Virus record (IMG/VR): IMGVR_UViG_3300040807_001405
Coordinates: 1 to 31,208 of that record
Reading direction: 5' to 3' (one strand)
Origin: a virus
DNA: 31,208 bases
Below, one piece after another: positions 6,223-31,208 of the stretch. The notes under the pieces are model-generated. The model made no database searches, was not told the origin of the DNA, and was given only the letters and a program-made list of their open reading frames with translations. How positions within the stretch are numbered: the first letter of the stretch is position 1; every line of letters starts with the position of its first letter. The position numbers and the translations under genes are program-made.

Positions 6223-6225
6223 GGA

Positions 6226-6645
6226 TCAGACCTCGTACCAAGTGAAGACGGGAGCCGCCGTCGAGGCGACTTCGAAGTTGAACGTCACGGTCGCGTCGCC
6301 GTCCTGCGTCGAAGCGAACGCGACGGAACCGAAGACCGCGTCGAACGCGATCGAGCAGTCGGCGGTCCCTCCGATATCATTCCAGCCGAGAACGATATTC
6401 CCGCCTGCGGCACTTCCGTCGATGCCGACCGCGCTCGTCGTCGCCGCGTTATATTCGGGAACGCCTCCGGCGGATCCGGTGATGTCGACGACGGCGGACG
6501 CGACTCGACTCGCGCCCGAATCACCGAAGCCGGTCACGACCGAGGTCGTCCGCGAGATCGTCGCCGACCACGTATTCAGTTGAGCCTTGTACCCGGTCGG
6601 CATCGTCACCGATCCGTCCGATCCGATCGCTGTAGTCGTTCCCAT
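6226..6645 (-). CDS. Major tail (tube) protein-like, paralogue 1
   Basis: A 139-residue protein starting MGTTTAIGSDGSVTMP. It shares the ordered motifs of its neighbour at 5779-6222 (AIGSDG, LNTWSAT, TGSAGG, TVTFNFE), so the pair arose by tandem duplication. The gap to the next gene is only three bases. It lies between the tail-terminator-like gene and the second copy, the normal place for a siphophage tail-tube gene. It has no signal peptide or enzyme motif. The assignment rests on gene order and composition; the duplication is directly visible. Confidence 0.75.
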   Translation of the reverse strand: MGTTTAIGSDGSVTMPTGYKAQLNTWSATISRTTSVVTGFGDSGASRVASAVVDITGSAGGVPEYNAATTSAVGIDGSAAGGNIVLGWNDIGGTADCSIAFDAVFGSVAFASTQDGDATVTFNFEVASTAAPVFTWYEV

Positions 6646-19301: not shown

Positions 19302-20176
19302 CGAGCCTCCGAGATATCGAGTCGGATTCGTCGGTGGTCGTTCGGTTCGTAGCGTCGCTCGATCGAGAGGCGTAGCCATGCCGCGCCGATCGGCTTCGGC
19401 GGCGCGCCTCGTTCGATATGCCAGCCGGAGAGCGGCGAGAACTCGTCCTTGTATCCCGGCGTCGAGAGATGCAGGACGTCGTCGATCCGCGTCGTCCCTC
19501 CCGACGTCAGCGAGATCGAGGCGAGTCGGAGGTTCCACGCGTCGTGCGTATGACCGGACCAGACCATATCGGCGTTCGGGAGGTACGACTGACGGCGTCG
19601 CGTATTCAGAACGCCGTGGGTCATCGGTCCGCCGCCTCCGTTGCCGTGCGTGTAGTAGAGGATCCGCGAGAGGACGCGACCGTAGACGCGAACGGATAGG
19701 CGAATGAACCCGGCGTAGGATCCGACGACGACCGGCGATCCGGAGGAGCGTAGGCGTTCGGCGGTCCGCTCGGTCAGGTCGGTCTCGTGCCGCTTGAGGA
19801 TCGAGGTCTCGTGGTTCCCCGGCGACATGAAGAGCCAGCGATCGGCGAACGGCTCGTAGAAGTCGGCGGCGCACTCGACGAGCGAGTCGAGGTAGCGACC
19901 TTCCCTCTGCTCCGGTCGGCATGCGTCGGTCGATGCTCGCTTGTCCCACTTACCCTGCATCGCGCAGTGGAGGTCGCCGATGTCGAGGATCCCCGCGTTC
20001 CGCTCGACCGCCTCGTTCAGATGGAGGAGTTCGAGCCTCTGGTCCGCGTGCGAGTTGTCGTGGTGCGCGTCGGATCGGAGCAGGAAGTCCTGCGACCACC
20101 CGTCCCCGTCGGCCTCCATCTCAATCTGGTAGCAGCCGCGTCCGGTCTTCGAGATCTCGGCGTCGAGCGTAGGCAT
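19298..20176 (-). CDS. Calcineurin-like metallophosphoesterase
   Basis: A 292-residue protein starting MPTLDAEISKTGRG. The metal-binding signature is complete: SDAHHDN (35-41), DIGDLH (65-70), SPGNHE (118-123), then YYTHGNG near 175 and WSGHTHDAW near 208. Members hydrolyse phosphoesters in nucleotides, nucleic acids or proteins. Phages often carry one near replication or packaging genes, with substrate unknown. The gap to the preceding lipoprotein gene is 59 nt and holds only a weak purine-rich ribosome-binding site. The substrate here cannot be told from sequence. Confidence 0.88.
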   Translation of the reverse strand: MPTLDAEISKTGRGCYQIEMEADGDGWSQDFLLRSDAHHDNSHADQRLELLHLNEAVERNAGILDIGDLHCAMQGKWDKRASTDACRPEQREGRYLDSLVECAADFYEPFADRWLFMSPGNHETSILKRHETDLTERTAERLRSSGSPVVVGSYAGFIRLSVRVYGRVLSRILYYTHGNGGGGPMTHGVLNTRRRQSYLPNADMVWSGHTHDAWNLRLASISLTSGGTTRIDDVLHLSTPGYKDEFSPLSGWHIERGAPPKPIGAAWLRLSIERRYEPNDHRRIRLDISEAR

Positions 20177-20235
20177 CCGTTCAGTCCCCGATATGTTGAC
20201 GGCGTAGGAAGGCGGAGGATCCCGTCTCCCGCGTT

Positions 20236-20781
20236 CTAGCCTCCGGAGGCCCGATCACCCTCCTGAGCGTTCCGGAAGGCTGAGAGACCGTCCTCGACCG
20301 CCTTCGCGACCTCTCGACCCTTCAGGAGTCCCGCCCGATACGACTCGTCCCGTTCGATCGCCTCTCGCCGCTTATCGCCGGGACGCTTCAGGAAGAGACC
20401 TCCGAGGAGAGCGAGACCGGAACCGAGGATCGCGCCGCCCGGTAGGGTCGAGGCGGCGTCCTGCCCGATCCCGATCCCGGTCTCCGTGAGCGATCGGATT
20501 ACTCCGGCGATCTCCTGACCTCGGTCGATCTCGTCGGCGAACCGTCGGGACTCTCGCTCGACGTACGCCTGCCAATCTTCCCACGCGGCGGCGGAGTCGG
20601 AGACCGAGATCCTCGGCTTCGAGTCGATCGCGGTCGCGACGTCGTCCGGGACGTCGACCTTCACGAGATCCTCGACCTGACACGCGGAGAGCGCGGAGGC
20701 GAGGAGGAGGACGCAGATAGACGCGACGATCATCGTCGACGCCTTCCGGTTCGCGGCGAGTGCTTCGCGGATCTTCGTCAT
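20236..20781 (-). CDS. Putative lipoprotein with a second membrane segment
   Basis: A 181-residue protein starting MTKIREALAANRKASTM. A basic N-terminus is followed by a hydrophobic stretch and the lipobox LSAC (31-34), so Cys34 is a plausible lipidation site. A second hydrophobic, Gly-rich segment (GGAILGSGLALLGGLFL) lies near 113-130 and is followed by basic residues. Coupled by ATGA to the small membrane protein upstream. The pair could be lysis factors (spanin- or holin-like) or envelope proteins, but the order of features does not match a standard spanin. If the lipobox is used, the mature N-terminus is outside the cytoplasmic membrane. Confidence 0.78.
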   Translation of the reverse strand: MTKIREALAANRKASTMIVASICVLLLASALSACQVEDLVKVDVPDDVATAIDSKPRISVSDSAAAWEDWQAYVERESRRFADEIDRGQEIAGVIRSLTETGIGIGQDAASTLPGGAILGSGLALLGGLFLKRPGDKRREAIERDESYRAGLLKGREVAKAVEDGLSAFRNAQEGDRASGG

Positions 20782-21044
20782 CGGGTCGGCTCCAGTCGTG
20801 CGATTCGGTTTCGGAGTTCGGCGAGTTGCCGATCCTGATCGTGATTCGTCGCGGTCGACTCGACCGACGCCTTCACGAGATCGGAGGCGATCTCCCGCAG
20901 TTCCCCGATCTCCTCGGTGTTCACTTCGAGGCGAGCGTCCTTCCGTCCCATCGTGAGGAAGACACCGGCGACGCCGACGACGAGCGTTCCGAGTTGGAGG
21001 CTCTGGAGGACGATCGTCATCGTGCCGCGTCGCGTTTCGTTCAT
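20778..21044 (-). CDS. Small membrane protein, possible holin-like or lysis accessory
   Basis: An 88-residue protein starting MNETRRGTMTIVLQS. One membrane segment (about 10-31, with LGTLVVGVAGVFLTM) is followed by a charged helix with heptad character (NTEEIGELREIASDLVKASVES; QDRQLAELRNRIARLE). This is the layout of single-pass phage proteins with a coiled-coil tail, sometimes associated with lysis. It is coupled by ATGA to both the sigma-like gene and the lipoprotein gene. No endolysin is recognisable nearby, so holin function is unproven. Confidence 0.75.
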   Translation of the reverse strand: MNETRRGTMTIVLQSLQLGTLVVGVAGVFLTMGRKDARLEVNTEEIGELREIASDLVKASVESTATNHDQDRQLAELRNRIARLEPTR

Positions 21045-21556
21045 CGGGTGAGTCTGCCGAGTTCGTGTCGAAGGATGTCGAGAAGATCGGACCGCGTCTC
21101 CTCGATTCGTTCCTCCAGTTCCGTAGGACTATCGAAAGAGAGCGGAGGGATCCGCTCGATCGCGAGTCGTTCGATCGAGACTCCCTCGATGATCCGTTCC
21201 ATCATCTCGCGGAGATCGGGTTGCACGGCGTCGAGTAGATCCGCGAGATCGACGACGCTCGCCGGATCGGGTTCTCGGTTCTTCGCCTTCGGGTCGATCG
21301 CCTGCGACGCGAGCCATCCTTCGGGACGCTTTCGCATTCCCGAATCCCTGAGAATCCGGTATTCGACGCGACCGGGTAGGAACCGCGAGAGGAACGTCGT
21401 CGCGGTCGAGATCGTCGGATCGAACTTCTCGCGGAGCAGGCGATCGGCTTCGATGAACGCGATCGAGCGGATCTCGTCCGCGTCGACTCCGGCGAACTTG
21501 CCGGACTTCTTCCAAGCGGTCGCGAGGTTGACGACGTGACCGACGTGATCGTTCAC
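21041..21556 (-). CDS. Sigma-factor-like protein, GTG start
   Basis: A 171-residue protein. The GTG at 21556 overlaps the upstream nuclease stop as GTGA. The first half resembles sigma-70 region 2: VDADEIRSIAFIEADRLL (24-41), KFDPTISTATTFLSRFLPGRVEYRILRD (44-71 in outline) and MRKRPEGW (74-81). A linker follows. The second half (LREMMERIIEGVSIERLAIERIP; EETRSDLLDILRHEL) could be a degenerate region-4 helix-turn-helix. It lies at the end of the replication block, just before the late genes, a natural place for a late-gene regulator. The region 2 similarity is good by eye; region 4 is weak, so it might be an anti-sigma or another DNA-binding protein. Confidence 0.55.
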   Translation of the reverse strand: MNDHVGHVVNLATAWKKSGKFAGVDADEIRSIAFIEADRLLREKFDPTISTATTFLSRFLPGRVEYRILRDSGMRKRPEGWLASQAIDPKAKNREPDPASVVDLADLLDAVQPDLREMMERIIEGVSIERLAIERIPPLSFDSPTELEERIEETRSDLLDILRHELGRLTR

Positions 21557-21882
21557 TCGTCGAGAGCGTCGACGATCGTCCTCGCGAACCGTTCGAGATC
21601 CTCCGCTCGGATCAGCAGGTTCCACGGTCCCCGGTCCTCTCGCATCGCGACGACCGGGATCGACTCCAACGAGTCCCGCTCCGCCTGTTCCATGAACCGG
21701 AGCGAGGCGATCCCGCTCCTTCGCTTCACCTCCCAGTGGATTCCCTCGATGGACGAGTCTACATCGGCGGTTCCGGCGTCGCCGCAGAACTGCTGCGTCC
21801 TCCTAGCATCGAATCCGAGCGACCGGAGAAACGCGGCGAACTCTCGCTCGCCTCGCTTCCCTTTCTCGCGGCTGTTCGTCAT
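21553..21882 (-). CDS. Holliday-junction-resolvase-like PD-(D/E)XK nuclease
   Basis: A 109-residue protein starting MTNSREKGKRGEREF; the ATG at 21882 overlaps the kinase stop as ATGA. It has the ordered motif of archaeal-type or phage Holliday junction resolvases: KGKRGEREFAAFL with Glu13, an Asp40 in TADVD and Glu51-x-Lys53 in HWEVKRR. A QFCGDAGTADVD loop precedes the catalytic strand. It should cut branched DNA during replication or before packaging. The size and all key residues fit the family. Confidence 0.87.
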   Translation of the reverse strand: MTNSREKGKRGEREFAAFLRSLGFDARRTQQFCGDAGTADVDSSIEGIHWEVKRRSGIASLRFMEQAERDSLESIPVVAMREDRGPWNLLIRAEDLERFARTIVDALDE

Positions 21883-22334
21883 GCGTCCTCCATCGTCGAC
21901 TTGATGCTCGCGACTCGTTTCGCCGGTACGCCGTGGACGTTCTCGAAGTCGTTCTCGCATCGAACGACGACGACGGTATATCCGCGCTCCTCGGCGATCG
22001 CTCGATATATCGAGATTTCGGATCGCTTCCGGAAGACGTTCGTGACAGCGATCCTCGGCATCGAGCAGATCATCGCCTGCTCGACGCGATCGCGGCACCA
22101 TCGGTGGGCGAGGTCGAGGAGGTCCGGATCCCAGAACTCCGCGTAGGTCTTCCGGTTCTTGTGCGCCTCGATATCGAACCAGTCGTCCGCCGCGTAGCAG
22201 GCTCCCGGTGCGAGGATCAGACCGACGGAACTCTTCCCGCTTCCGGGATGTCCTCGAACGACGAAGAGCGTTCGCCGGGTCTGCTTCCTCTTCGCTTCGC
22301 CGTGTAGGCGTTCCGCTTCGTCCTTCTTCGTCAT
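21879..22334 (-). CDS. P-loop kinase (N4BP2 / polynucleotide-kinase-like)
   Basis: A 151-residue protein starting MTKKDEAERLHG; the ATG at 22334 overlaps the upstream stop as TGATG. Walker A GHPGSGKSS (28-36) is followed by ADDWF (50-54), an Asp-Asp pair typical of the N4BP2-like or AAA_33 group, then a Trp/His-rich stretch (LAHRWCRDRVEQAM), a RIAVTNVF strand and the NVHGVP motif (132-137). The family includes polynucleotide kinases and related phosphotransferases. It sits next to two nucleases. It could phosphorylate DNA or RNA ends during repair or counter host RNA cleavage. The substrate is unknown. Confidence 0.82.
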   Translation of the reverse strand: MTKKDEAERLHGEAKRKQTRRTLFVVRGHPGSGKSSVGLILAPGACYAADDWFDIEAHKNRKTYAEFWDPDLLDLAHRWCRDRVEQAMICSMPRIAVTNVFRKRSEISIYRAIAEERGYTVVVVRCENDFENVHGVPAKRVASIKSTMEDA

Positions 22335-22903
22335 CAGCACTCGCTCCCGTCGATCATCTGGTCCGCCGCGTAGACGAGACCGGTGTAGATCCTCGTCCAC
22401 GAATCGAGGTCGCTCGACTTTCCCTTGAACGTCGGCGCGACTCGTTCGACCTTCTCGCGAGCGACGAGTAGTCGCTCCGATGACCACGTTCGGATCTCGT
22501 CGATCCTCTGGGCGTGTTCCTTCTCGACGACCTGCCGCTCGACCTCGTCCGCGCTCCGGAGCGTCGCTCGTTCGATCTGGACGATCTGGCGGTTCTTCTC
22601 GTGACGGTACGCGTCGCCGACGTCGTGGAACTTCGGTTCCTTCCAGCCGGTCGTCTTCCGTACCGCGAGGATCGCTTCGCGGAGAGCCATCTGGTTCACG
22701 GTCTCCGGTCCCTTCACCGCGTGCGGCTTGTCGAACGATCGGAACCAGACTTCGCGGGTCATCTCCGCCGTCGGGTTCCAATCCTTCCAGAGACTACGAA
22801 GGAGAGTCCAGTTCTCTTCCCACGTCGGAACGCGCGTCTCGGATCTCCTGCTCGATACGAGCGGCGCGAATTTCATCGTCGGTTGGTTCGGGTTCGTTTC
22901 CAT
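22334..22903 (-). CDS. Hypothetical replication protein, possible helicase loader
   Basis: A 189-residue protein starting METNPNQPTMKF. It overlaps the 3' end of the initiator-like gene by 110 nt in another frame. The middle has a helical pattern (EENWTLLRSLW; EMTREVWFRSFD; VNQMALREAILAVRK; KFHDVGDAYRHEKNR) that loosely recalls the G39P-type helicase loader/inhibitor family. The second half is a charged coiled coil (DEVERQVVEKEHAQRIDEIR). The position after the initiator-like gene is where phages place a helicase loader. The similarity is only in pattern. A shorter form starting at Met10 is possible. Confidence 0.72.
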   Translation of the reverse strand: METNPNQPTMKFAPLVSSRRSETRVPTWEENWTLLRSLWKDWNPTAEMTREVWFRSFDKPHAVKGPETVNQMALREAILAVRKTTGWKEPKFHDVGDAYRHEKNRQIVQIERATLRSADEVERQVVEKEHAQRIDEIRTWSSERLLVAREKVERVAPTFKGKSSDLDSWTRIYTGLVYAADQMIDGSEC

Positions 22904-23642
22904 CGTTCCATCTTTCTTGGTTGAAGTACGTCGAGCCGAGCGGGACGAACTTCAGTTCGCTCTCCCCGGCTTCGATCTTCCGAATGTACGAAGCGGCGTC
23001 GTCGCGTGTCTGGTGCGCGATGATCGACGCGGCGTCCTTGAGTTCGATCCCTTGCTTCTTCGCGAGCGATCGGATCGACCGCTCGATCGCGGCAACGCCG
23101 ACCTTCCTCCCGGACTTCCTGCCCGGAACCCACGCCGACCAGATCAGATCCGACCACGCCGGGTCGAGCCGTACGCGTGCGGGAGAGGTAGAGGCGGAGG
23201 AGGAGGAAGAGGTAGAGGCGTAGGAGTAGGAAGTCTCCGCAGTAGGGGAGACCGTAGCCGGGACCGTAGTCTCGACTGTAGTCCCCTCTGTAGTCGCTTC
23301 ATCGTAGAGCGGAGAGAAGTCCTTCCCGTTCCGGTGCAGCGTCGCCTTGACGTAGCGAGGAGCGTGGTCCGGCCAGTCGTGGACGAGGAGCCTCGCCGGT
23401 CCCGCGACCGGATCGACGAGCCTCGACCGGACGAACGCGGCGACGAGGTCGGTCGAGTCTCCCGGCCATTCGAGAGCCGTCGCGATGTCCTCGTCGTCGT
23501 GCCGACCGATCTCGCCGGTCGGAGCGTGCTTCCCCGCGAACCGCCAGAGGAGTCCGGCGAGTCCGATCGCGTGCGGCCACGGTACGCCGAGGACGGCGGC
23601 GAGCCTTCGGATCTTCGGAGAGGTGTAGGTTCCTTCGAGCAT
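22794..23642 (-). CDS. Replisome organiser-like replication initiation protein
   Basis: A 282-residue protein starting MLEGTYTSPKIRRL, with AGAAGGA upstream. The first 75 residues (RLAAVLGVPWPHAIGLAGLLWRFAGKHAPTGEIG; DDEDIATALEWPG in outline) look like the winged-helix N-terminus of phage replisome organisers. A Ser/Thr-rich linker (about 125-155, with TSSSSSASTS) follows, then a helical C-terminus (KQGIELKDAASIIAHQTRDD). In lambda, the origin lies inside gene O, and here the DNA coding for the linker holds 12-bp-period repeats. It should bind an origin and recruit the host helicase. No polymerase or helicase is encoded, so host replication proteins would be needed. Confidence 0.78.
   Translation of the reverse strand: MLEGTYTSPKIRRLAAVLGVPWPHAIGLAGLLWRFAGKHAPTGEIGRHDDEDIATALEWPGDSTDLVAAFVRSRLVDPVAGPARLLVHDWPDHAPRYVKATLHRNGKDFSPLYDEATTEGTTVETTVPATVSPTAETSYSYASTSSSSSASTSPARVRLDPAWSDLIWSAWVPGRKSGRKVGVAAIERSIRSLAKKQGIELKDAASIIAHQTRDDAASYIRKIEAGESELKFVPLGSTYFNQERWNDGNEPEPTDDEIRAARIEQEIRDARSDVGRELDSPS
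23197..23298 (+). other. Candidate origin / iteron region inside the initiator gene
   Basis: A purine tract ends in GAGGAGGAGGAAGAGGTAG (23197-23215), identical to 30099-30117. Five 12-bp units follow at 23239-23298, each with GTAG at the same place: GCAGTAGGGGAG, ACCGTAGCCGGG, ACCGTAGTCTCG, ACTGTAGTCCCC, TCTGTAGTCGCT. They code for Thr/Ser-rich linker residues. Related GTAGTCGC and GACTACAG elements occur at 30114-30145. The layout suggests initiator binding sites, but low-complexity coding sequence is an alternative. Confidence 0.45.
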
Positions 23643-23678
23643 GGCGATCCTTCTAAGCAGAACCCGCCGCCGCGCACA

Positions 23679-23740
23679 AGGAGCAACAAGGCGCGACGGC
23701 GAGTTCCGAGAGAAGTCTTCGCGAGCGACCGGTTGCTCCT
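23679..23740. repeat. Inverted repeat AGGAGCAAC in the 114-bp intergenic gap
   Basis: AGGAGCAAC (23679-23687) is repeated in inverted orientation at 23732-23740, 44 bases apart. The gap 23643-23756 separates the PD-(D/E)XK nuclease gene from the initiator-like gene. The nine bases are also the core of the ribosome-binding leader used by the early genes, so one arm is an antisense copy that could pair with those leaders. No promoter is clear here. It may be coincidence. Confidence 0.4.
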
Positions 23741-23756
23741 CGGTCGCGCGTAGAGT

Positions 23757-24191
23757 CTAACCGAGAACGCGGAACCGTGCGAGTTCGATCTTCACGATCG
23801 GCTCGACGTCTCCCGCGTCTCGCGTCTGCCGAGTTCGACCGCCGAACTCGACGAAGCCGTTCCAGTGCTGGCCGTCGATCCGAGCGAACCGGATCTCGCC
23901 GGTCCGATCCTCGACGACGAAGAACGAGGATCCCGCGAGCCGAGCGAAGCGACGGAGCGCGTCGACCTTCCGCAGCGAGAGCATGACGTCGGGATAGTCT
24001 CCCCACCTCATCTCGCGCCGCTTGTATTCGATCCACGCGACGACTCCGAAGCCGGGACGGCTGGCGGCGAAGTCGACCTCGTAGGATCGCGGAAGTTTGT
24101 CGAGGGTGCAGTTCCATCTTCTCTCGATTCGCTTGGATGCCTCGACCTCGTTCGCGAGCGTCTCGGCGTTCTCGTAGATCGGACGACCCAT
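23757..24191 (-). CDS. PD-(D/E)XK nuclease-like protein
   Basis: A 144-residue protein starting MGRPIYENAETLANEV; the ATG at 24191 overlaps the SSB-like stop as TGATG. The motif run is YEVDFA with Asp40 and then Glu55-Tyr-Lys57 in VAWIEYKRR, which is a (E/D)xK active-site pattern, with a supporting Glu in the first helix. A short helix (KVDALRRFARLAG) and a strand ending in FFVVED follow. The spacing fits compact phage PD-(D/E)XK nucleases. Together with the RecT-like and SSB-like genes it makes a recombination module, where it could be the exonuclease or a repair nuclease. A distinct exonuclease is otherwise missing. Confidence 0.72.
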   Translation of the reverse strand: MGRPIYENAETLANEVEASKRIERRWNCTLDKLPRSYEVDFAASRPGFGVVAWIEYKRREMRWGDYPDVMLSLRKVDALRRFARLAGSSFFVVEDRTGEIRFARIDGQHWNGFVEFGGRTRQTRDAGDVEPIVKIELARFRVLG

Positions 24192-24646
24192 CAGAACGGG
24201 ATATCCGAATCGTCGTTCGCTCCGTCGTCGTGCCGACCGTCGTCGAGGTTCTGCGGATCGCCGACGCTCGACTCCTTCGGGTTCGCGGAGATCCCGCAGA
24301 CGCGCGTCCGGTCGTAGCCGTCCTCGACCTCTACGGTGAGTTCGCGACCGATGAACTTCGCGGGATCGAAGAGCGAGTATCCCGATGAGTCCGTCTCGTG
24401 GTACGCCTTCCGAGCGTCGTCGCCGATCGCCTTCGCGAGCCGACCGAACTTCCACGCTCCCTTCTCGTTGATGAACTCGCTGATCTTCGCGGTCCCGTCG
24501 ACCGTGACGAACTCGACGATCGCTCCGGAGAACTTCGCCGTCGTGACCTCCGGCGAGTACGAGGCGATCCGCATCCGGTACTCGCCCGCCTCCGCGTCCG
24601 GGATGTCCTTCGTGTTCGTCGCTTCCGCTTCAGGCTTGAACTTCAT
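24191..24646 (-). CDS. Single-stranded DNA-binding-like protein
   Basis: A 151-residue protein starting MKFKPEAEATNTKDIP; the ATG at 24646 overlaps the stop of the HTH gene as ATGA and has AAAGGAAG upstream. The body is beta-rich like an OB fold (GEYRMRIAS; AIVEFVTVDGT; FIGRELTVEVEDG) and resembles DUF669-type phage proteins. The C-terminus is acidic and ends DDSDIPF, the classic tip by which bacterial SSBs recruit partners. It probably coats ssDNA and brings in host or phage recombination proteins. The fold is inferred; the tail is directly visible. Confidence 0.82.
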   Translation of the reverse strand: MKFKPEAEATNTKDIPDAEAGEYRMRIASYSPEVTTAKFSGAIVEFVTVDGTAKISEFINEKGAWKFGRLAKAIGDDARKAYHETDSSGYSLFDPAKFIGRELTVEVEDGYDRTRVCGISANPKESSVGDPQNLDDGRHDDGANDDSDIPF

Positions 24647-24831
24647 GGTGTTTCTTCCTTTCCGATCATCTGATCGAGAGAGTCGATCTCGACGAACACG
24701 CGTCCGCCGATCTTCTTCGAGGCGATCTTCCCCGCCTTCGCCCAGTCCCGAATCGTATCGAGACTCGGCTTCCATCCTGTACGCTCTTCGACGAGCGCGG
24801 GAACGTCTGCGATCTTCACGGGCTGAGCCAT
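24643..24831 (-). CDS. Small helix-turn-helix protein (excisionase/AlpA-like)
   Basis: A 62-residue protein starting MAQPVKIADVPALVEERTG. It reads as a winged helix or MerR-like DNA-binding domain: DVPALVEERTG, then SLDTIRDWAKAGKI, then the wing KIGGRVFVEIDSLDQMI, typical of excisionase, AlpA or small terminase-type HTH proteins. It starts 16 nt inside the RecT-like gene and ends in an ATGA overlap with the SSB-like gene. There is no integrase in the genome, so excision is unlikely; regulation of this operon or DNA binding for replication is a better guess. Confidence 0.8.
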   Translation of the reverse strand: MAQPVKIADVPALVEERTGWKPSLDTIRDWAKAGKIASKKIGGRVFVEIDSLDQMIGKEETP

Positions 24832-25487
24832 ACGAGCATCCTCCGAGTTTGGTCGGCGTCGAGTTCGTCGATCGAGTTCACGCCAGCCTTCTCGATCGCT
24901 TTCCGCTTGATCTCTTCGCCGTCCTCGCGAGCGGCGAGGAGGTCTTCGATCTTCTCGTGGTCCGTCTTCTCCGGTCGAGGGATCTCGCTCTCGCCGTGCG
25001 CTTCGACGTAGACGGGAGCGCATCCGAGCGCGTCCGGTGCGTGCGTTCGGTATCCCTGCGAGATCGCTCTCGCGAACAGCATCGCCTTCGGGTACTTCTT
25101 CCAGTTAGTCCCTCCGAGTCCGGCCTTCTTCGCGTCGTCGAGCGTGAACGTCGTCGTCCCGATCTCCTCTCGATCTCCGGTCGGCATGATCTCGAAGAAC
25201 GTGATCGAGCAGGAGTCGTCGGTCGAGTCGGCGCGGTAGGTATATTTACCCGACCGCTTGATCGCCGCCGCCATATGGTTCGCTCCGAGTACGACCTTAC
25301 CCTGAATGATATGGAGGCTCATCGCGTCGTACGGGTTGAGTCCCATCCCGCGACCGACGATCAGTTTCGTCGCGCATTGTGCTGCGTCTCGGTGTTCCGG
25401 GAACATCCCGGACGCGGCGAAGATCCTTCCCATTTCGACGAGGTCGGTCTCGCCCGGTGTCGTGTTCGTAGTGAGTTCGGTCGTCAT
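24816..25487 (-). CDS. RecT-like single-strand annealing protein
   Basis: A 223-residue protein starting MTTELTTNTTPGETDLV, coupled to the gene before it by ATGA. The motif order GRGMGLNPYDAMSLHIIQGKVVLGANHMAAAI (51-82 in outline), then TTTFTLDDAKKAGL, then KYPKAMLFARAISQGYR and DALGCAPVYVEAHGE, matches a phage RecT/Bet-type recombinase group. The charged C-terminus ends MLVWLSP. It anneals ssDNA and, with a nuclease and SSB, supports recombination-dependent replication. All three partners are nearby here. Confidence 0.78.
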   Translation of the reverse strand: MTTELTTNTTPGETDLVEMGRIFAASGMFPEHRDAAQCATKLIVGRGMGLNPYDAMSLHIIQGKVVLGANHMAAAIKRSGKYTYRADSTDDSCSITFFEIMPTGDREEIGTTTFTLDDAKKAGLGGTNWKKYPKAMLFARAISQGYRTHAPDALGCAPVYVEAHGESEIPRPEKTDHEKIEDLLAAREDGEEIKRKAIEKAGVNSIDELDADQTRRMLVWLSP

Positions 25488-25732
25488 CGGTTCTCCAGTC
25501 GCTTGAGTCGTGCGTTGATCTTCGCGAGTTCTTCGTCGAGTCGTAGTCCCGGCTTGCGTTCGCGGTCCTCTCGGTCCTGATTTCGGTACGCTTCGAGTTC
25601 CGCGAAGAGAGCGAGCAGGACCGTCATGTCTTCAGCGATGAAGCCGACGCGAGCCTCAGCGATCTTCTTCATCTTGTCGAGTGGCCGGAGTTCAAGGTCT
25701 TCCCAGCCGTCGGTGCTTCGGTCGGTCGTCAT
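25484..25732 (-). CDS. Small coiled-coil hypothetical protein
   Basis: An 82-residue protein starting MTTDRSTDGWEDLELR. It overlaps its upstream and downstream neighbours by ATGA. After an acidic start the sequence is nearly all helix (KMKKIAEARVGFIAEDMTVLL; RLDEELAKINARLKRLENR) with heptad spacing at the end, so it probably forms a coiled-coil oligomer. I recognise no family. It directly precedes the RecT-like gene, so co-expression with recombination is expected. Confidence 0.75.
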   Translation of the reverse strand: MTTDRSTDGWEDLELRPLDKMKKIAEARVGFIAEDMTVLLALFAELEAYRNQDREDRERKPGLRLDEELAKINARLKRLENR

Positions 25733-25947
25733 CGTTCTTCTCCTTCGCCGATCAGGTAGTAGTCGTGAACGTAGAGGGTCGCTCCGAGACGGAGGACTCC
25801 GTCGCCCGCGTAGACGAGATCGGCTCCGGTGGCGTTCCGTAGATACGCCTGTATCTGGTGAGGGTCTGAGTATGACGCCGCATCCTTCGCTTCCGTCGTG
25901 AGGCAGAGCCGTACCGCGTCGACGGTGATTTCTGTTTCGTTCTGCAT
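25729..25947 (-). CDS. Small hypothetical protein
   Basis: A 72-residue protein starting MQNETEITVDAVRLC. It has the second type of leader in this genome (AAAGGAAG) and a 12-bp stem-loop upstream at 25977-26003. The sequence looks like a small alpha/beta fold ending in VLRLGATLYVHDYYLIG and has no known motif. It begins the coupled set that leads into the RecT-like gene. Confidence 0.72.
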   Translation of the reverse strand: MQNETEITVDAVRLCLTTEAKDAASYSDPHQIQAYLRNATGADLVYAGDGVLRLGATLYVHDYYLIGEGEER

Positions 25948-25976
25948 GGTCTTCTTCCTTTCTAGAAGAGGGTAAA

Positions 25977-26003
25977 GGGAGACCGGGAACGTCCCGGTCT
26001 CCC
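25977..26003 (-). terminator. Perfect 12-bp stem-loop between genes
   Basis: GGGAGACCGGGA and TCCCGGTCTCCC pair without mismatch around a 3-nt loop. It begins eight bases after the stop of the 26011 gene and is followed by TTTACCC, a weak pyrimidine tract. It could end some transcripts or mark an RNA-processing site. It belongs to a family of related stem-loops at 26521, 28028 and 29099. Confidence 0.6.
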
Positions 26004-26010
26004 CGTTCGG

Positions 26011-26487
26011 TCATCGGAACGAGACTCGCGTGAGCGTCGAGTCTTCGCGTGCCGGGTAGTAGGAGGACTCCCGCTTCGAGGGATCCGAGATCGAGACGAT
26101 CTTGATGTCGGTGCCGCTCGTCCCTACTCCGCGAGAGACGACCCGGCAGACGTGCCAGACCTCTCCGAAGAGACGGAGGACGAGGTCGCCGAGTTCGACT
26201 TGATACGGTCGAACGAGTTCGCAGTTCTCCGGTCCGTAGCGGACGCGGTTCTCGAACGCGTTCGAGATCCACGTCTCGCGTCCCGCATGGTCGACGTGGA
26301 ACTGGAAGAGGTTGTCGCTGGGACGACTTCCCTCGGCGATGACCGTCGCTGGGTAGTAGTCGAGACCGGACTCGTGGAAGAGATCGGTGAGCCGCTCTTC
26401 GATCTTCTTCGCGTCTTCGAGGCTTCCGCAGAAGACGGTCGCTTCGGTTCGGTCGTGCGTCGTTTCGGTCTTGGTGATCTGCTGCAT
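26011..26487 (-). CDS. Hypothetical early protein
   Basis: A 158-residue protein starting MQQITKTETTHDRTEA, with the standard early leader GAACAAGGAGCAACG. It has two apparent parts: an N-terminal half with alternating helix and strand (FCGSLEDAKKIEERLTDLF) and a C-terminal half that looks like a small beta-barrel (VELGDLVLRLFGEVWHVCRVV). The sequence is acidic overall. No family is recognised. As an early-region gene it may be a host-takeover or anti-defence protein. Confidence 0.75.
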   Translation of the reverse strand: MQQITKTETTHDRTEATVFCGSLEDAKKIEERLTDLFHESGLDYYPATVIAEGSRPSDNLFQFHVDHAGRETWISNAFENRVRYGPENCELVRPYQVELGDLVLRLFGEVWHVCRVVSRGVGTSGTDIKIVSISDPSKRESSYYPAREDSTLTRVSFR

Positions 26488-26520
26488 GTTCGTTGCTCCT
26501 TGTTCGGTCGTTCGGTCGTA

Positions 26521-26549
26521 GGGGAGACCGGGAACGTCCCGGCCTCCCC
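26521..26549 (-). terminator. 13-bp stem-loop between genes
   Basis: The arms 26521-26533 and 26537-26549 pair over 13 positions around a 3-nt loop. The only imperfection is A opposite C on the plus strand, which becomes a G-U pair in the minus-strand RNA, so the structure suits RNA read from that strand. It begins nine bases after the stop of the 26558 gene. Confidence 0.6.
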
Positions 26550-26557
26550 GCGTTCGG

Positions 26558-26770
26558 TCAGTCGACGAGAAGGATCTTCATCATCGACTCGTGGTTCGCC
26601 TGCATCTTCGCGAGTTCCTTCTCGGCGTTCTCGTAGAGCCAGCATCGGTTCGACCAGCCTTCGCGGCGAGCCTCGCGAGCCTGCTCGACGATGAACTCGC
26701 GAGTCTTCTTCCAGCAGGAGAAGGCGTTCATCAGGACTCGGGCGGTCTCTTCTGGGGTCTGCTTGTTCAT
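26558..26770 (-). CDS. Small hypothetical early protein, first gene after P3
   Basis: A 70-residue, mainly helical protein starting MNKQTPEETARVLMNAF, with Trp/Cys residues in CWKKTREF and NRCWLYEN. It is the first gene after promoter P3 and has the standard early leader. No family is recognised. Being first after an apparently strong promoter suggests it is made early and in quantity. Confidence 0.75.
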   Translation of the reverse strand: MNKQTPEETARVLMNAFSCWKKTREFIVEQAREARREGWSNRCWLYENAEKELAKMQANHESMMKILLVD

Positions 26771-26773
26771 GGT

Positions 26774-26789
26774 CGTTGCTCCTTGTTCG
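26774..26789 (-). promoter_or_regulatory. Conserved early Shine-Dalgarno leader
   Basis: CGAACAAGGAGCAACG (minus strand) precedes the 26770 gene. The same string occurs at 26491-26506, 27623-27638, 28002-28017, 29072-29087 and 29791-29806; a variant (GCAG replaces GCAACG) is at 28559-28572. AAGGAG is a strong ribosome-binding core, but the conservation extends well beyond it. Confidence 0.85.
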
Positions 26790-26800
26790 GTCGGTCGGTT

Positions 26801-26887
26801 CGAGGAACGCTTCCCCGATGTCCCAACTATAACCGGACTTTCCCCCAGTGTCTACCCTCTTCCTCGATTTTTCTCGATTTTCTCCGA
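26801..26887 (-). promoter_or_regulatory. Early promoter P3 with 5' stem-loop and phased A-tracts
   Basis: The minus strand has -35 TAGACA (26854-26849), a 17-bp spacer and -10 TATAGT (26831-26826). Upstream are two tandem A-rich elements, GATTTTTCTCGA (26866-26877) and GATTTTCTCCGA (26876-26887, plus-strand reading), about ten bases apart, as in an UP-type element. About two bases after the predicted start (near 26819), 26817-26801 forms a seven-pair stem with a G-U pair and a 3-nt loop, at the likely mRNA 5' end. Confidence 0.78.
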
Positions 26888-27078
26888 GGACGGATATCGA
26901 GCCGGAAGCCGAGTTCCGCCGCCTTCGAGATGACCGCGTCGAGGTCGCGGCGATACGGGTTCCCCGGCGAGAGCCGGACGACGAGGTCGCCGGGATCGAA
27001 GCCGTCGAACCGGGTGGCCGCCGCCCAGAGGCGGCGACCTTCCCGGAGGAGGAGACGGTGGGCGCGAGGAGCAGTCAC
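26827..27078 (-). CDS. Small basic hypothetical protein, GTG start
   Basis: An 83-residue protein starting MTAPRAHRLLLREGRR (GTG). The GTG at 27078 overlaps the upstream stop as GTGA. Its sequence (LWAAATRFDGFDPGDLVVRLSP; RRDLDAVISKAAELGFRLDIRP) suggests a small alpha/beta protein with basic ends (Arg/Lys-rich near 62-70). Its stop lies inside the -10 element of promoter P3, so transcripts through this gene enter the next unit. No family is recognised. Confidence 0.78.
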   Translation of the reverse strand: MTAPRAHRLLLREGRRLWAAATRFDGFDPGDLVVRLSPGNPYRRDLDAVISKAAELGFRLDIRPRRKSRKIEEEGRHWGKVRL

Positions 27079-27419
27079 GATCCCGCCTCCAGTTCGATGG
27101 CCTTCTCTTCGAGTTCGAGCGACTCGACGAGAGCCTCGACGATCGCGTCCTCGTCGTCGAGTTCGATCCAGTTCGTCGAGCGGTGCGCGATGATCGGGAG
27201 GAAGACCGAGACCATCGCGTCCTCGCGGTCGCGCCTTGTGATCTCGACGATCTCCGCGCTCGCGTCGTCGCTCCACGGTTCGTGACCTGCTCGCTCGACG
27301 TCTGCGGTGACGCGAATCTTGAGCCAGTAGATTCCGGGTCCGACCTCGATCCCGTTGTGCTTGTACGCCTTCTCGATGACGAGTTCCTCGTCGAGAGTGA
27401 ATTCGATGGTCTCGCTCAT
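27075..27419 (-). CDS. Hypothetical acidic early protein
   Basis: A 114-residue acidic protein starting MSETIEFTLDEELVIEK. It overlaps its neighbours by ATGA (27419-27416) and GTGA (27078-27075). Beta-like first half (FTLDEELVIEK; YWLKIRVTADV) and a Glu-rich helical end (DEDAIVEALVESLELEEKAIELE). The acid load could mimic DNA or bind basic host proteins, but I recognise no family. Confidence 0.75.
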   Translation of the reverse strand: MSETIEFTLDEELVIEKAYKHNGIEVGPGIYWLKIRVTADVERAGHEPWSDDASAEIVEITRRDREDAMVSVFLPIIAHRSTNWIELDDEDAIVEALVESLELEEKAIELEAGS

Positions 27420-27619
27420 TGGTCTTCTCCTCCGTATACGTCGCTGTTCGCGTAGCCGTGCGACTCGCCTGCGGCGATGACGATCCCGCCGTCGTTCGCG
27501 AGTACGGCGTGAACTCCGCAGATGAGCGGGTACGTCGGCTGGATCGCGATCGAGACCGAGAGGTCGCCGTGTTCTTCTTCGAGTCTTTCAAGTTCTTCGA
27601 TGAGGGTAGAGATATACAT
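27416..27619 (-). CDS. Small hypothetical early protein
   Basis: A 67-residue protein starting MYISTLIEELERLEEEHGDLSV. The pattern of an acidic N-terminal helix followed by a short strand with DLSVSIAIQP and a later VLANDGGIVIAAGE resembles small phage proteins that begin with a helix and give an E-D-G turn. It has the standard leader but no stem-loop in the 28-bp gap upstream, the one exception in its class. Confidence 0.72.
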   Translation of the reverse strand: MYISTLIEELERLEEEHGDLSVSIAIQPTYPLICGVHAVLANDGGIVIAAGESHGYANSDVYGGEDQ

Positions 27620-27647
27620 TTTCGTTGCTCCTTGTTCGTAGCGGGTT

Positions 27648-27998
27648 TCAGGAATTCCAGTTCTGTATCGTCGCGAGAGGCAGTCGGTCCTGCCCGGACG
27701 CCTTCGAGTTCCACTCCATGTTGAAGGGTCGGTCGGAGTAGAGCCTGAAGCACGTTTCTTCGCAGTAGAGCGGGTGGCGGAAGCACTCGCGGTTCCCCAG
27801 CGAGCGAACCTTGCGTCGAGTCCACGATCCGGTTGAACGGACGGCTCCGTCTTCGATCTCGACGAGCGCGACCTGCACCCAGTCGCCTTTCCTTTCCATG
27901 ACCTTCACCGCTTGAATGCTGACGGTCTTGTCGCTTCGTCGAACGTTTCCGGTATGGAGGAGGATGTCTCCGGCTTCGATCTTCGTAGTGGTCTGCAT
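27648..27998 (-). CDS. Hypothetical early protein with Cys-rich C-terminal half
   Basis: A 116-residue protein starting MQTTTKIEAGDILLH. An N-terminal beta-barrel-like segment (DKTVSIQAVKVMERKGDWVQVALVEIEDG) is followed by a segment with ECFRHPLYCEETCFRLY, where three Cys and a His could bind metal. It has the standard early leader and a 10-bp stem-loop upstream. No family recognised. Confidence 0.74.
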   Translation of the reverse strand: MQTTTKIEAGDILLHTGNVRRSDKTVSIQAVKVMERKGDWVQVALVEIEDGAVRSTGSWTRRKVRSLGNRECFRHPLYCEETCFRLYSDRPFNMEWNSKASGQDRLPLATIQNWNS

Positions 27999-28027
27999 CG
28001 TCGTTGCTCCTTGTTCGAGTAGGGGAA

Positions 28028-28052
28028 GGGAGGCGGGTACGTCCCGCCTCCC
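28028..28052 (-). terminator. 10-bp stem-loop between genes
   Basis: GGGAGGCGGG and CCCGCCTCCC pair around a 5-nt loop. It begins eight bases after the stop of the 28060 gene and is followed by TTCCCCT and then the conserved leader of the 27998 gene. No long U-run is present, so complete termination is doubtful. Confidence 0.55.
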
Positions 28053-28059
28053 CGGTTGG

Positions 28060-28554
28060 TCATCGCTTGAATCGGTCGGAGAAGACCCGGGAGATCGCGA
28101 CCTTGCTCTTCCAGTTGATCGGGTCGGCGTGGTGGATCTCGGAAGAACCGGCGACGCGGAAGACGAGCCGAACCTCTCCGCAGTCGAGGTAGGAACCGAG
28201 GACGGTTCGACCGTTCTCCCACTCGTCGCAGCAGACGATGAAATCGCCTCGCTTGAGATCCTTCGCGAAGACCTTCGGCTGGTCGTCGATCTGATCCCGC
28301 GACTTCGCGAAGGAGTACGCCGCCGCCTTCGCCTTCGCGGCGGTGCCGTAGTCGTAGACCTCGAACGCGTGGACCGTGCCGTTTTCGATCTCGACGTCGT
28401 AGGCTTCGGTGACGAGTCGGCTGTCGCTCGTCGCGACGCCGAAGCGGTCGCGGTTGTTGAGACCGAGACGCTGCTCGATCTGGGACCCGTTCGCGAGTTC
28501 CCAGACGTTTCCGAATTCTCCGTCGCGGTCCTGAATCTTGATGGCGGTCTTCAT
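28060..28554 (-). CDS. Hypothetical early protein, first gene after P2
   Basis: A 164-residue protein starting MKTAIKIQDRDGEFG, with the variant leader GAACAAGGAGCAGCACC. It is the first gene after promoter P2. The sequence seems to have a beta-rich N-terminal half, an Ala/Lys helix (TAAKAKAAAYSFAKSRDQ) and a C-terminal half with paired Cys (FIVCCDEWENG). No family is recognised. Its promoter position suggests early expression. Confidence 0.75.
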   Translation of the reverse strand: MKTAIKIQDRDGEFGNVWELANGSQIEQRLGLNNRDRFGVATSDSRLVTEAYDVEIENGTVHAFEVYDYGTAAKAKAAAYSFAKSRDQIDDQPKVFAKDLKRGDFIVCCDEWENGRTVLGSYLDCGEVRLVFRVAGSSEIHHADPINWKSKVAISRVFSDRFKR

Positions 28555-28582
28555 GGTGCTGCTCCTTGTTCGAGGTCGATCC

Positions 28583-28658
28583 GGCGGGACGTTCCCGCCT
28601 GAGAGGACTATACCCGACGTTCTACTACTTGTCGAGTCCTTCGGGGACTTTCTCCGAA
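28583..28658 (-). promoter_or_regulatory. Early promoter P2 with 5' stem-loop and upstream element
   Basis: The minus strand has -35 TCGACA (28635-28630), a 17-bp spacer and -10 TATAGT (28612-28607). The hairpin GGCGGGA-ACG-TCCCGCC (28599-28583) begins almost at the predicted start (near 28600). Upstream, GACTTTCTCCGA (28646-28657, plus-strand reading) is the counterpart of the A-tract elements of P1 and P3, ten bases beyond the -35. Confidence 0.8.
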
Positions 28659-28678
28659 GATTCCTGAAGAAAGTCCCC
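28643..28678 (-). terminator. 11-bp stem-loop between early genes, overlapping the P2 upstream element
   Basis: GGGGACTTTCT and AGAAAGTCCCC pair over 11 bases, with a 14-nt loop. It begins 13 bases after the stop of the 28691 gene. One arm coincides with the A-rich element above promoter P2, so it may serve as both an end for upstream RNA and a protein-binding palindrome. There is no U-run. Confidence 0.5.
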
Positions 28679-28690
28679 GCCGCTCGCCGG

Positions 28691-29068
28691 TCAGATCAGC
28701 GTCGAGATCGCGTCGAAGAACTCGGTTCGCTTCAGGAAGACCTTCCACCGCTTCGCCTCCTCGACGGCGTCCTTCTTCCACGATCGTTTCCGGAAGCCGT
28801 ACCGTCCGCCGGGGACGTCGTCTGCGAAGAGTCGGACGATCGAGCCGTCGATCATCTCGGCGAAGGCGTACGAGAGATCCCAGTTGGGGTAGCCGGGATC
28901 GGAGAGGAGCCGGACGCGGAGGAACCGAGCGAATCGAGGCTGAGCCCAGATCGGTCGTCCGTCGTCGAAGTACGGGACGGAGTCGATCGACGGTCGTCCC
29001 TCCTGCGGTCCTCGCTCCTCGAAGTTCTTCATCCCGTTGAGTCCGTTCGTTTCGGTGAATCCTTGCAT
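28691..29068 (-). CDS. Hypothetical early protein
   Basis: A 125-residue protein starting MQGFTETNGLNGMKN, with the standard early leader and an 11-bp stem-loop upstream. The sequence has YPNWDLSYAFAEMIDG and RYGFRKRSWKKDAVEEAKRWKV, aromatic and basic patches of a small globular protein. No family is recognised. Read with the genes on either side it belongs to the early accessory set. Confidence 0.74.
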   Translation of the reverse strand: MQGFTETNGLNGMKNFEERGPQEGRPSIDSVPYFDDGRPIWAQPRFARFLRVRLLSDPGYPNWDLSYAFAEMIDGSIVRLFADDVPGGRYGFRKRSWKKDAVEEAKRWKVFLKRTEFFDAISTLI

Positions 29069-29098
29069 GGTCGTTGCTCCTTGTTCGTAGTAGGGGAA

Positions 29099-29126
29099 GG
29101 GAGACCGGCGACGCTGCCGGTCTCCC
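29099..29126 (-). terminator. 11-bp stem-loop between genes
   Basis: GGGAGACCGGC and GCCGGTCTCCC pair perfectly around a 6-nt loop. It begins nine bases after the stop of the 29135 gene, followed by TTCCCCTACTAC and the conserved leader. It is the same type as the stem-loops at 25977, 26521 and 28028. Confidence 0.6.
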
Positions 29127-29134
29127 CGATTCGG

Positions 29135-29788
29135 TCAGCCGATCGACTTCGAGGTGTCGAACATCGACGCCATGACCATCTGGCCGAGCGTTCGAGGATT
29201 CTCAAGATGGGCGCGTTGACGGCGACCCTCGTCCGCCGCGAGGTTCTCGCGTTGTAGTCCGGTCGTGATCGTGCGAGCCTCCGAGCATTCCGCGACGCGA
29301 ATCGCGTAGCGGAGGAAGGCGATGTCGGCTTCGTTACCGAGCGAGATCGCGGCGGCGAGTCGACGGTCGAGCGTGACGAGCCGCTGACCGGCGGCGAACT
29401 CCTTCGCCTTCGCCTTCTGCTCGTCGGTGAGTTCGACGGTCGCCGGAGCGACGGTCGCTTCCTTCGACGCCGCCTCCTCGGCGGTCGCCTTGCCGGGATA
29501 GACCTTGACGACCTGAAGGTCTTGGTTCTCGACCGTCCACTTGTAGGATCGACCGTCGCGTTCGGCGTAGCGAGCCTGATCCCGGTAGAAGTCGTTCCGG
29601 TCGGCGAGCCACTTCTCGGCGAGTTCCTTCGATCGGTTGATGACTTCGAGTTGACCGGCGGCGTTCGCGACGCCGTAGACGTGTCCGTCGGCTTCGACGG
29701 CGGCGAGGACGGCGGCTCGCTTGCAGTTCTTCGAGGTGGTGAGTTCGCCGTTGCGGACGCCGTAGAAGGTCGAGGTCGAGGTGGTCAT
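29135..29788 (-). CDS. Hypothetical first early protein, after P1
   Basis: A 217-residue protein starting MTTSTSTFYGVRNGE, with the standard leader. An N-terminal alpha/beta stretch (ELTTSKNCKRAAVLAAVEADGHVYG) is followed by helices with Tyr/Arg-rich sequence (DFYRDQARYAERDGRSYKWTV), an Ala/Lys/Glu-rich linker and a helical end. No family is recognised. It is the first gene after P1, at the start of the early operon. Confidence 0.75.
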   Translation of the reverse strand: MTTSTSTFYGVRNGELTTSKNCKRAAVLAAVEADGHVYGVANAAGQLEVINRSKELAEKWLADRNDFYRDQARYAERDGRSYKWTVENQDLQVVKVYPGKATAEEAASKEATVAPATVELTDEQKAKAKEFAAGQRLVTLDRRLAAAISLGNEADIAFLRYAIRVAECSEARTITTGLQRENLAADEGRRQRAHLENPRTLGQMVMASMFDTSKSIG

Positions 29789-29812
29789 TTCGTTGCTCCT
29801 TGTTCGAGGTCG

Positions 29813-29901
29813 GGCGGGACGTCCCCGCCGCTGAGAGGACTATCGCCTATTTCCTCGCTCGTGTCTACTACTTCGCCTGATTTTCTCCGAATTTTTCCGA
29901 G
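29813..29901 (-). promoter_or_regulatory. Early promoter P1 with 5' stem-loop and phased A-tracts
   Basis: The minus strand has -35 TAGACA (29867-29862), a 17-bp spacer and -10 GATAGT (29844-29839). The stem-loop GGCGGGG-ACG-TCCCGCC (29829-29813) starts about three bases after the predicted start (near 29832). Upstream lie two A-rich elements in phase: GATTTTCTCCGA (29879-29890) and GAATTTTTCCGA (29889-29900), plus-strand reading, like those of P3. Confidence 0.75.
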
Positions 29902-30146
29902 AATCCCCGATCACGGGTACGGGAGCGAGGGATCGCCTCTCCCGCCTCGGAGGGATTCGGGGACGGACGACGCGTCCGGGACGCGGGAACGCGGGAGACG
30001 GGATCCTCCGGCCTCGTAGGGATCCTCGATCCGATCTCTCTCTCCTCGCTCCCTGAGCGGGATAGGAAGAGGAGGAGGGAAGGGAGGAGGAGGAGGAAGA
30101 GGAGGAGGAAGAGGTAGTCGCGACTACAGACCGAACTACAGACCGG
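29902..30146. other. Long intergenic region between late and early operons
   Basis: With P1 this is the only non-coding stretch longer than 300 bases (29789-30146, 358 bp). Next to P1 is a GC-rich stretch (29902-30060) in which I see no gene or terminator. Then a purine-rich tract (30061-30113), the palindrome at 30114-30127 and two 12-bp direct repeats up to 30145. No U-run terminator is visible after the late-operon stop at 30147. Confidence 0.7.
30099..30145 (+). other. Second candidate origin or iteron region
   Basis: GAGGAGGAGGAAGAGGTAG (30099-30117) is identical to 23197-23215. GTAGTCGCGACTAC (30114-30127) is a perfect 14-bp palindrome. ACTACAGACCG occurs twice, 12 bases apart (30123-30133, 30135-30145). 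Read on the other strand, the units in the initiator-like gene also contain GCGACTACAGA with a 12-bp period. The match in both sequence and period suggests a shared binding protein, probably the initiator. Confidence 0.45.
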
Positions 30147-31208
30147 TCAGGAGATGAGCGAGTCGGAGATCGTTGGAGAGGTCGACGACGGAAGAGCGAG
30201 ACCGAGGTCGCTTCCGATTCGGAAGAACCGCTCGAACTCGCGAGCCATCGCGCCGTCGCTCGCGCCGATGTTGTTCGTCACGCTCGCCGTGAACTCGTCG
30301 CCGACCGCGTAGCGGTTCGCGCCGCCGAGGATCTGGTACGCGAGTCCGCCGTTCTCGACTCGCGGCATCTCCGCGATCACGAGGTCGTCGATGAAGACGT
30401 CCGATCCGCTCGCGAGGTTGCTGGAGAACCGGATATCGATCTCGCATCCCTTCGGGATCGACTGCGGCGAGAAGACCGTCGTGGTGAATATCTGGTACGA
30501 CGTCGTGAAGTCGCCCGATGCGATCTGCATCGACATCGCTCGACCGCTGACGAGGTTGTTCAGGATCACGCCGCTCGAATCGCGAACCGAGATCGTGAGC
30601 GTGACGCCGGGAACGACGGAGGCGTACTTCGCCGCGACCGAGATCGAGTACGGTCGATCCGGGTTGATCTCTCCGAGCGAACCCGACGTCGATCGGAGCG
30701 GCTGCGTCAGGCGATGCGTCGTGAGTCCGTTCCCGGTCATCTTCAGAGCGTCCGATCCCGTGTACCCGGAACCCGCCGCGTAGAAGTTCGTTCCCGCCGT
30801 TCCGGTCTCGTACGTCCAGCCGGTCGCGGTATTCGAGGAGAAGTCCTCGAAGTCGGAGTTCGTGCAGACGTTCCGTCCCGGCGTTCGACCGCCGTCGACG
30901 CGAGGACTCGCGACCGTGATCGTTCCCTTCGTCCCGGTTCCCTTCGGCCACTCCTCGTCGAGAGACGGCACCGCTCGCTGGCCGATCACGCGGAAGATCT
31001 CCTCGCCTTCCGCGACCGCTCTCGACGTCGCGTCTCGAATGCACGACGCGCGAACCGTCTCAGTCTGGATCGAAGGGTAGTCGAGGAAGAGCGTCGAACT
31101 CGACGCGGCGAATCCCTGCATCGGCATCAGGTCGGAGACGAGGAGGACGCCGTCGCCCGCGTTCAAGGATCCCGCCGTTCCCTTCCCATCGGTCGGCAGG
31201 GTGACGTA
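30147..31208 (-). CDS. Tail-tip or receptor-binding-type structural protein, C-terminal part (joins 495-1)
   Basis: Codons 166-469 and the stop are at 31061-30147; bases 31062-31208 repeat codons 117-165, already present at 147-1. The protein is 469 residues. The middle of this part (TNSDFEDFSSNTATGWTYE; YAAGSGYTGSDALKMTGNG; then VFIDDLVIAEMP) has the layout of a CBM4/9-like carbohydrate-binding beta sandwich: Gly- and Asn-rich, with a final FIDDLVI strand. A short end (ISDSLIS) follows. It is the last gene of the late operon. It may bind host-surface sugars, complementing the tail-fibre tip at 16.1-17.0 kb. The ligand is not readable from the sequence. Confidence 0.85.
   Translation of the reverse strand, partial: YVTLPTDGKGTAGSLNAGDGVLLVSDLMPMQGFAASSSTLFLDYPSIQTETVRASCIRDATSRAVAEGEEIFRVIGQRAVPSLDEEWPKGTGTKGTITVASPRVDGGRTPGRNVCTNSDFEDFSSNTATGWTYETGTAGTNFYAAGSGYTGSDALKMTGNGLTTHRLTQPLRSTSGSLGEINPDRPYSISVAAKYASVVPGVTLTISVRDSSGVILNNLVSGRAMSMQIASGDFTTSYQIFTTTVFSPQSIPKGCEIDIRFSSNLASGSDVFIDDLVIAEMPRVENGGLAYQILGGANRYAVGDEFTASVTNNIGASDGAMAREFERFFRIGSDLGLALPSSTSPTISDSLIS
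31062..31208. repeat. Terminal direct repeat, right copy
   Basis: Matches bases 1-147, with A at 31188 and C at 31197 differing. Both are third-position changes in the gene that spans the join. See the left copy. Confidence 0.93.

Follow-up and report, generated by a model that had tools for sequence, protein, structure and literature searches.

Small hairpins at the predicted start points of early-region messages in a phage family

The IMG/VR virus record IMGVR_UViG_3300040807_001405 was analysed over its whole length of 31,208 bases (the window), a linear molecule of 62.6% G+C. Recognisable genes are on the minus strand and encode major head, portal, terminase, tail fibre, metallophosphoesterase, RusA-like resolvase, replication initiator and RecT-like proteins, and the region from 26 to 30 kb holds small genes of unassigned function together with three predicted promoters (P1, P2 and P3) and the hairpins considered here. 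The genes behind P1–P3 are called early from their position only. From comparison of the sequences, most early-region messages that can be recognised in this family of uncultured phages appear to carry a small RNA hairpin at their start point, and the hairpin is probably, by analogy with known leaders, a shield against host message-destroying enzymes.

A generic sigma-70 scan of positions 20000–31208 returned three sites, which were P1, P2 and P3, all on the minus strand (shuffle mean 1.0, standard deviation 1.2). Their -35 and -10 hexamers, which were allowed to stand 16–18 bp apart, match at 9–10 of 12 positions with spacers of 17 bp. The pattern TNGACA-N17-NATAGT, composed after the sites had been seen, occurs three times in the window compared with 0.01 times in shuffled sequences. 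An earlier note on this DNA had proposed three promoters with a common core and exact 17-bp spacers, which both the scan and the pattern count confirmed. It had also described phased A-tracts; P1 and P3 indeed have two runs of 4–5 A about one helical turn apart, but P2 has a single AAA only. In all three promoters the near edge of the nearer run lies at -49, and each has an A-rich tract upstream of the -35, a feature of UP-element promoters. AAA at this place is found for 1.1% of positions in general, and two A-runs within 40 bp for 0.26% of window positions. P1–P3 are thereby supported as putative host-type promoters with UP-like A-runs. Just 5' of P2, and overlapping its A-run, a perfect 12-pair inverted repeat was observed (CGGGGACTTTCT / AGAAAGTCCCCG, window 28642–28679), which may be the end of the P1 unit or an operator.

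With the predicted +1 set 7 nucleotides after the -10 hexamer, a hairpin was found at the RNA start of each promoter (Table 1). The stems of P1, P2 and P3 have 7, 7 and 8 pairs and begin 9, 7 and 7 nucleotides past the -10, respectively, that is, at predicted +4, +2 and +2, with 3, 1 and 1 unpaired 5' bases in the predicted RNA folds. The last pair of the P1 hairpin is G-U, and the P3 stem contains one G-U among its 8 pairs. The seven-pair stem with a three-nucleotide loop, which the earlier note had placed 1–3 bases past the start of all three RNAs, thus holds for P1 and P2 but not for the longer P3 stem. Its statement that the stem sequences differ holds for P3 only, because the P1 and P2 hairpins are near copies (1 of 17 letters different). 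In the window, a stem of at least 7 pairs begins in a given six-nucleotide stretch in 1.6% of cases. Background for a six-nucleotide stretch is about 8–12% for 5 pairs and 3.5–4.6% for 6 pairs. Intrinsic terminators (hairpin plus T-run) were rejected as an identity, since none of the stems was among the matches of the terminator scan, and known Rfam families were rejected after a search of the window gave 0 matches at the gathering score.

Table 1. Promoters, hairpins, start-associated motifs and the P1 gene in the window
Feature	Position	Strand	Basis
P1 promoter core, TAGACA-N17-GATAGT; A-runs at -49 to -52 and -60 to -64	29839–29867	-	scans
P2 promoter core, TCGACA-N17-TATAGT; AAA at -49 to -51	28607–28635	-	scans
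P3 promoter core, TAGACA-N17-TATAGT; A-runs at -49 to -53 and -59 to -62	26826–26854	-	scans
P1 5'-terminal hairpin, GGCGGGG(acg)TCCCGCC; predicted +1 29832	29813–29829	-	stem scan, folding
P2 5'-terminal hairpin, GGCGGGA(acg)TCCCGCC; predicted +1 28600	28583–28599	-	stem scan, folding
P3 5'-terminal hairpin, TCGGGGAA(gcg)TTCCTCGA; predicted +1 26819	26800–26818	-	stem scan, folding
Start-associated motif GAACAAGGAGCAACGA, P1 gene	29790–29805	-	motif scan
Start-associated motif, P2 gene, 3 mismatches	28556–28571	-	motif scan
Start-associated motif, P3 gene	26773–26788	-	motif scan
Promoterless intergenic hairpin, 11 pairs, 5' of motif 29071–29086	29099–29126	-	
Promoterless intergenic hairpin, 10 pairs, core like P1/P2, 5' of motif 28001–28016	28028–28052	-	
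Promoterless intergenic hairpin, 13 pairs with one G-U, 5' of motif 26490–26505	26521–26549	-	
Gene behind P1, 217 amino acids, function unassigned	29135–29788	-	orthologs in L042, L032, L044

Relatives were collected through searches with RecT, the replication initiator and the metallophosphoesterase, and through a scan for the start-associated motif, which returned 23 stretches, only two of them (L020 and L025) matching the early proteins of the window. No relative of the window was found by near-identity search of 50,697 phage records, and protein searches gave distant matches only. Nine loci were surveyed (the window, L025, L030, L031, L032, L042, L044, L045 and L059). Promoter-like sites were picked by -10, -35, A+T content, ribosome site and reading frame, and the hairpin was not a criterion. 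To be kept, a site had to reach an upstream A+T content of 0.5 and a minimum match to the -35, with thresholds fixed after earlier lists had been seen; exact copies were merged. In other scans of the contigs, hits resembling coding or late regions were removed by eye.

The survey yielded 15 sites, to which seven of the nine loci contributed. At 13 of the 15, a perfect stem with 5 or more pairs begins 5–9 nucleotides past the -10 (6 or more pairs: 10 of 15). Sixteen of the other 19 five-nucleotide bins held no site, two held 1 and 2, and the adjacent bin (10–14) held 4. The two sites without a perfect stem (L045 +5098 and L059 +3136) have a helix from the predicted +1 with an internal loop inside, and three sites outside the filters (L042 +9942, L032 +6735 and L044 -3612) likewise carry the hairpin. 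The orthologous sites of L030/L031 and of L045/L059 are not independent. Counted over 18 sites, the predicted RNAs have 0 unpaired 5' bases in 3, 1 in 10, 2 in 2 and 3 in 3, and a corrected start shifts L059 from 1 to 0; the stem is thus 5'-terminal, with 0–1 unpaired bases at the predicted start, in 13 of 18 leaders. Two distant relatives (RecT 48–49%) also have start-site hairpins, L152 at 10769 - and 3528 +, and L153 at 8632 - and 1845 +; two of these have the loop aatgaa, which is present in L032 too. In the cultured Synechococcus phage S-LBS1, no site qualified in this same scan for promoters with hairpins. At three loci (L030 at about 6430–6550, L031 at about 6220–6330 and L032 at about 5280–5390), divergent promoter pairs were observed on one common A-rich stretch with a hairpin on each side.

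Conservation of the pairing was analysed with 8 triloop hairpins of the 18 sites in a gap-free alignment (56 pair cells). Pairing is kept in 98.2% of the cells compared with a shuffle mean of 74.3%; 12 cells are altered on both sides compared with 4.4 in shuffles, and 5 of the 7 pairs show both-side changes. The covariation score is 0.663, against 0.234 in shuffles and 0.204 for the best slid version. The compensatory changes that the earlier note had suggested seeking in related phages are therefore present, with stems conserved in shape and pairs changed on both sides. Relatives of the P1 gene are present in L042 (85%), L032 (67%) and L044 (66%); every one of them is preceded by a promoter of its own, and the stem differs in each case. 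Over their aligned parts, the proteins of L032 and L044 share 92% identity, whereas the stem reads GGCCGAA(gcg)TTCGGCC in L032 and GGTCGGGA(atga)TCCCGACC in L044. In L025 (650 and 1163, minus strand), a P2-type promoter is combined with a leader of the P3 type, and the next gene is preceded by a P1-type promoter, so leaders are exchanged as units.

Downstream of the hairpins lies a 16-nucleotide start-associated motif, GAACAAGGAGCAACGA, which precedes seven early-region genes (26490–29805, minus strand) and none of the structural genes. With up to 3 mismatches it has 8 matches in the window compared with 0.4 in shuffles, seven on the minus strand at 26–30 kb and one on the plus strand at 23674. 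Seven starts carry the GAACAAGGAGCAAC-type motif. An upstream stem of at least 7 pairs was found for 6 of the 7 motif-bearing genes and for 4 of 27 other starts in the window, which were hand-chosen from the open reading frame list. Three of these six hairpins are intergenic and promoterless, with 10–13 pairs, and two have a core like that of P1/P2. The hairpin and the start motif together form a leader cassette, and the promoterless intergenic hairpins and the inverted repeat 5' of P2 indicate that hairpins mark promoter leaders and cistron borders alike.

Elsewhere in the window, a 950-amino-acid frame at 10887–13739 is possibly a natural fusion: its first half matches a portal protein, and its end matches head-morphogenesis families. 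No tRNA genes were found in the window. A scan of genome contigs for the presumptive host returned four contigs, with titles from four different groups.

The explanation that we consider somewhat probable is that the 5'-terminal stem-loop hinders mRNA decay dependent on the 5' end, like the leaders of T7 gene 10 and ompA; the leader stems of ompA and papA stabilise mRNA. An A-rich UP-like element would help each promoter to recruit host sigma-70-type RNA polymerase, and RNA would start 7 nucleotides past the -10, usually at A. The nascent RNA would fold immediately into a stem of 5–8 pairs with a short loop, with roughly one 5' base left unpaired, and the ribosome-binding segment of the GAACAAGGAGCAAC type behind it would be open. 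The buried 5' end may then impede pyrophosphohydrolase and 5'-end-dependent nucleases, giving longer-lived messages and more protein, and the cassette of hairpin and start motif could be reused and swapped between promoters. The earlier note had proposed strong host-sigma promoters that yield stable capped-like mRNAs; the host-type promoters, the UP-like A-runs and the conserved stem-loop agree with this, but 'capped-like' is an analogy only. It is possible, although we regard it as doubtful, that the start-site hairpin is a standard exchangeable part of early units, selected for shape over letters, and that it serves as armour against decay from the 5' end in the host or against a decapping-like defence.

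Several observations weigh against 5'-end shielding. According to PMC3997798, RppH of B. subtilis requires at least 2 unpaired 5' nucleotides and prefers at least 3; by this rule, the three unpaired 5' bases of P1, its L025 copy and one L030 site are enough for the enzyme. The commonest leader, with one unpaired base (10 of 18), fits shielding, and P1, with three, fits less well. The minus-strand leader of L045 has another minimum-energy fold without the start-site stem, and no such hairpin was found in the upstream stretches inspected of L046 and L033 or in the scan of L047. Folding energies of single leaders are ordinary for their GC-rich composition (z scores -0.61, -1.03 and +0.24 for P1, P2 and P3), so folding energy lends no support, and the hairpin signal resides in position and in conservation across relatives. 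The 8 hairpins of the covariation set were picked with pairing in view and their sequences are related, and therefore the covariation figures overstate independence; the 15-site survey, which was blind to the hairpin, is the cleaner test. The mismatches that could separate RNA pairing from DNA pairing are divided among GU/UG (3), AC (2) and others (2), and they favour neither.

Among the alternatives, the hairpin may keep the ribosome site open, insulate translation from upstream sequence or recruit an RNA-binding regulator. Hairpins lie 5' of start motifs at promoters and at promoterless starts (6/7 vs 4/27), and some loops recur (gcg, atga/aatgaa, aacgac), as such a role would predict. No loop is common to all hairpins, however, and such a role does not explain why stems begin only a few bases from the predicted +1. 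We regard this reading as unlikely, and shielding of the 5' end is favoured over a mere aid to translation because the stems are tightly tied to +1.

The palindromes may instead be DNA operators at +1 to +20 for a phage or host repressor that would turn the promoters off, with the RNA hairpin as a by-product. This reading gains from the frequent location of operators at +1 and from the near identity of the P1 and P2 palindromes. The stem letters, on the other hand, vary inside one phage and among orthologs, stems of 5–8 pairs with loops of 3–6 nucleotides would change the spacing of half-sites, and hairpins are found at promoterless starts too. An operator role is in our judgement quite improbable, and RNA is favoured over DNA because stem letters are exchanged. 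Hardly more can be said for processing sites of the RNase III type or signals for antitermination or attenuation by which the early transcripts would be shaped, an explanation to which we give little credence. The hairpins of 10–13 pairs between cistrons and the 12-pair inverted repeat directly 5' of P2 would suit it, but the promoter stems of 5–8 pairs are short for cleavage by RNase III, and no stem was listed in the terminator scan. Chance was rejected as very improbable: hairpins arise easily in GC-rich DNA, single-leader energies are ordinary and the 5-pair background is about 10% per 6 nucleotides, but the 15-site position survey strongly disfavours it, with 13 of 15 at one position and 0–2 in all bins except the adjacent one, and pairs are changed on both sides.

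The hairpins provide ready natural compensatory variants for testing the effect of free 5' bases, stem length and loop on the life of bacterial mRNA, and they are a means of spotting start sites in uncultured phages. In the literature covered (titles and abstract openings, with subscription journals mostly outside coverage), no phage family was described with start-site hairpins at most early promoters.

The promoters resemble the early promoters of phage T4, which are of a strong host sigma-70 type, have UP elements and serve to take over the host polymerase; start-site hairpins are not mentioned in the passages of PMC2988021 consulted, and the present promoters differ from that description in having them. 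The layout of start motif and upstream inverted repeat is like that of the start-associated sequence (SAS) and extended SAS (ESAS) of Cluster K mycobacteriophages. According to PMC3203893, SAS is a conserved AGGAG-holding motif 5' of many non-structural genes, and ESAS is an inverted repeat found ahead of roughly half the SAS genes, in which departures from the repeat generally do not support RNA pairing and for which the authors favour DNA-binding proteins. Membership in this system was rejected, since here pairing is kept through letter changes and the motif is GAACAAGGAGCAACGA, in contrast to the 13-bp GGGATAGGAGCCC.

The stem at +1 is shared with T7 phi10 and phi3.8, whose stems have 8 pairs in our scan; those promoters serve T7's own polymerase, whereas the promoters here look host-type. 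In T7, no stem with 5 or more pairs lies close to the start in 13 of the 23 promoters scanned, and among its host promoters A1, A3 and B have no stem, A2 has 5 pairs at +1 and C has 7 pairs at +2. The T7 gene 10 stem-loop is employed as an mRNA stabiliser, and in C. necator it raised reporter output 1.5- to 3-fold together with mRNA abundance (PMC6146998). In B. subtilis, long mRNA stretches can also be stabilised by a hairpin located at the 5' end or close to it, and a 5' hairpin impedes RppH in E. coli (PMC3997798). The leaders found here are like those of ompA, papA and aprE: the stem lies at the 5' end or close to it, few bases are unpaired and the ribosome site is downstream. Those leaders belong to single host genes, and 5'-terminal stem-loops are otherwise encountered mostly in single genes and expression vectors; here, by contrast, they seem to stand with varied stems at most recognisable early-region promoters of several related phages.

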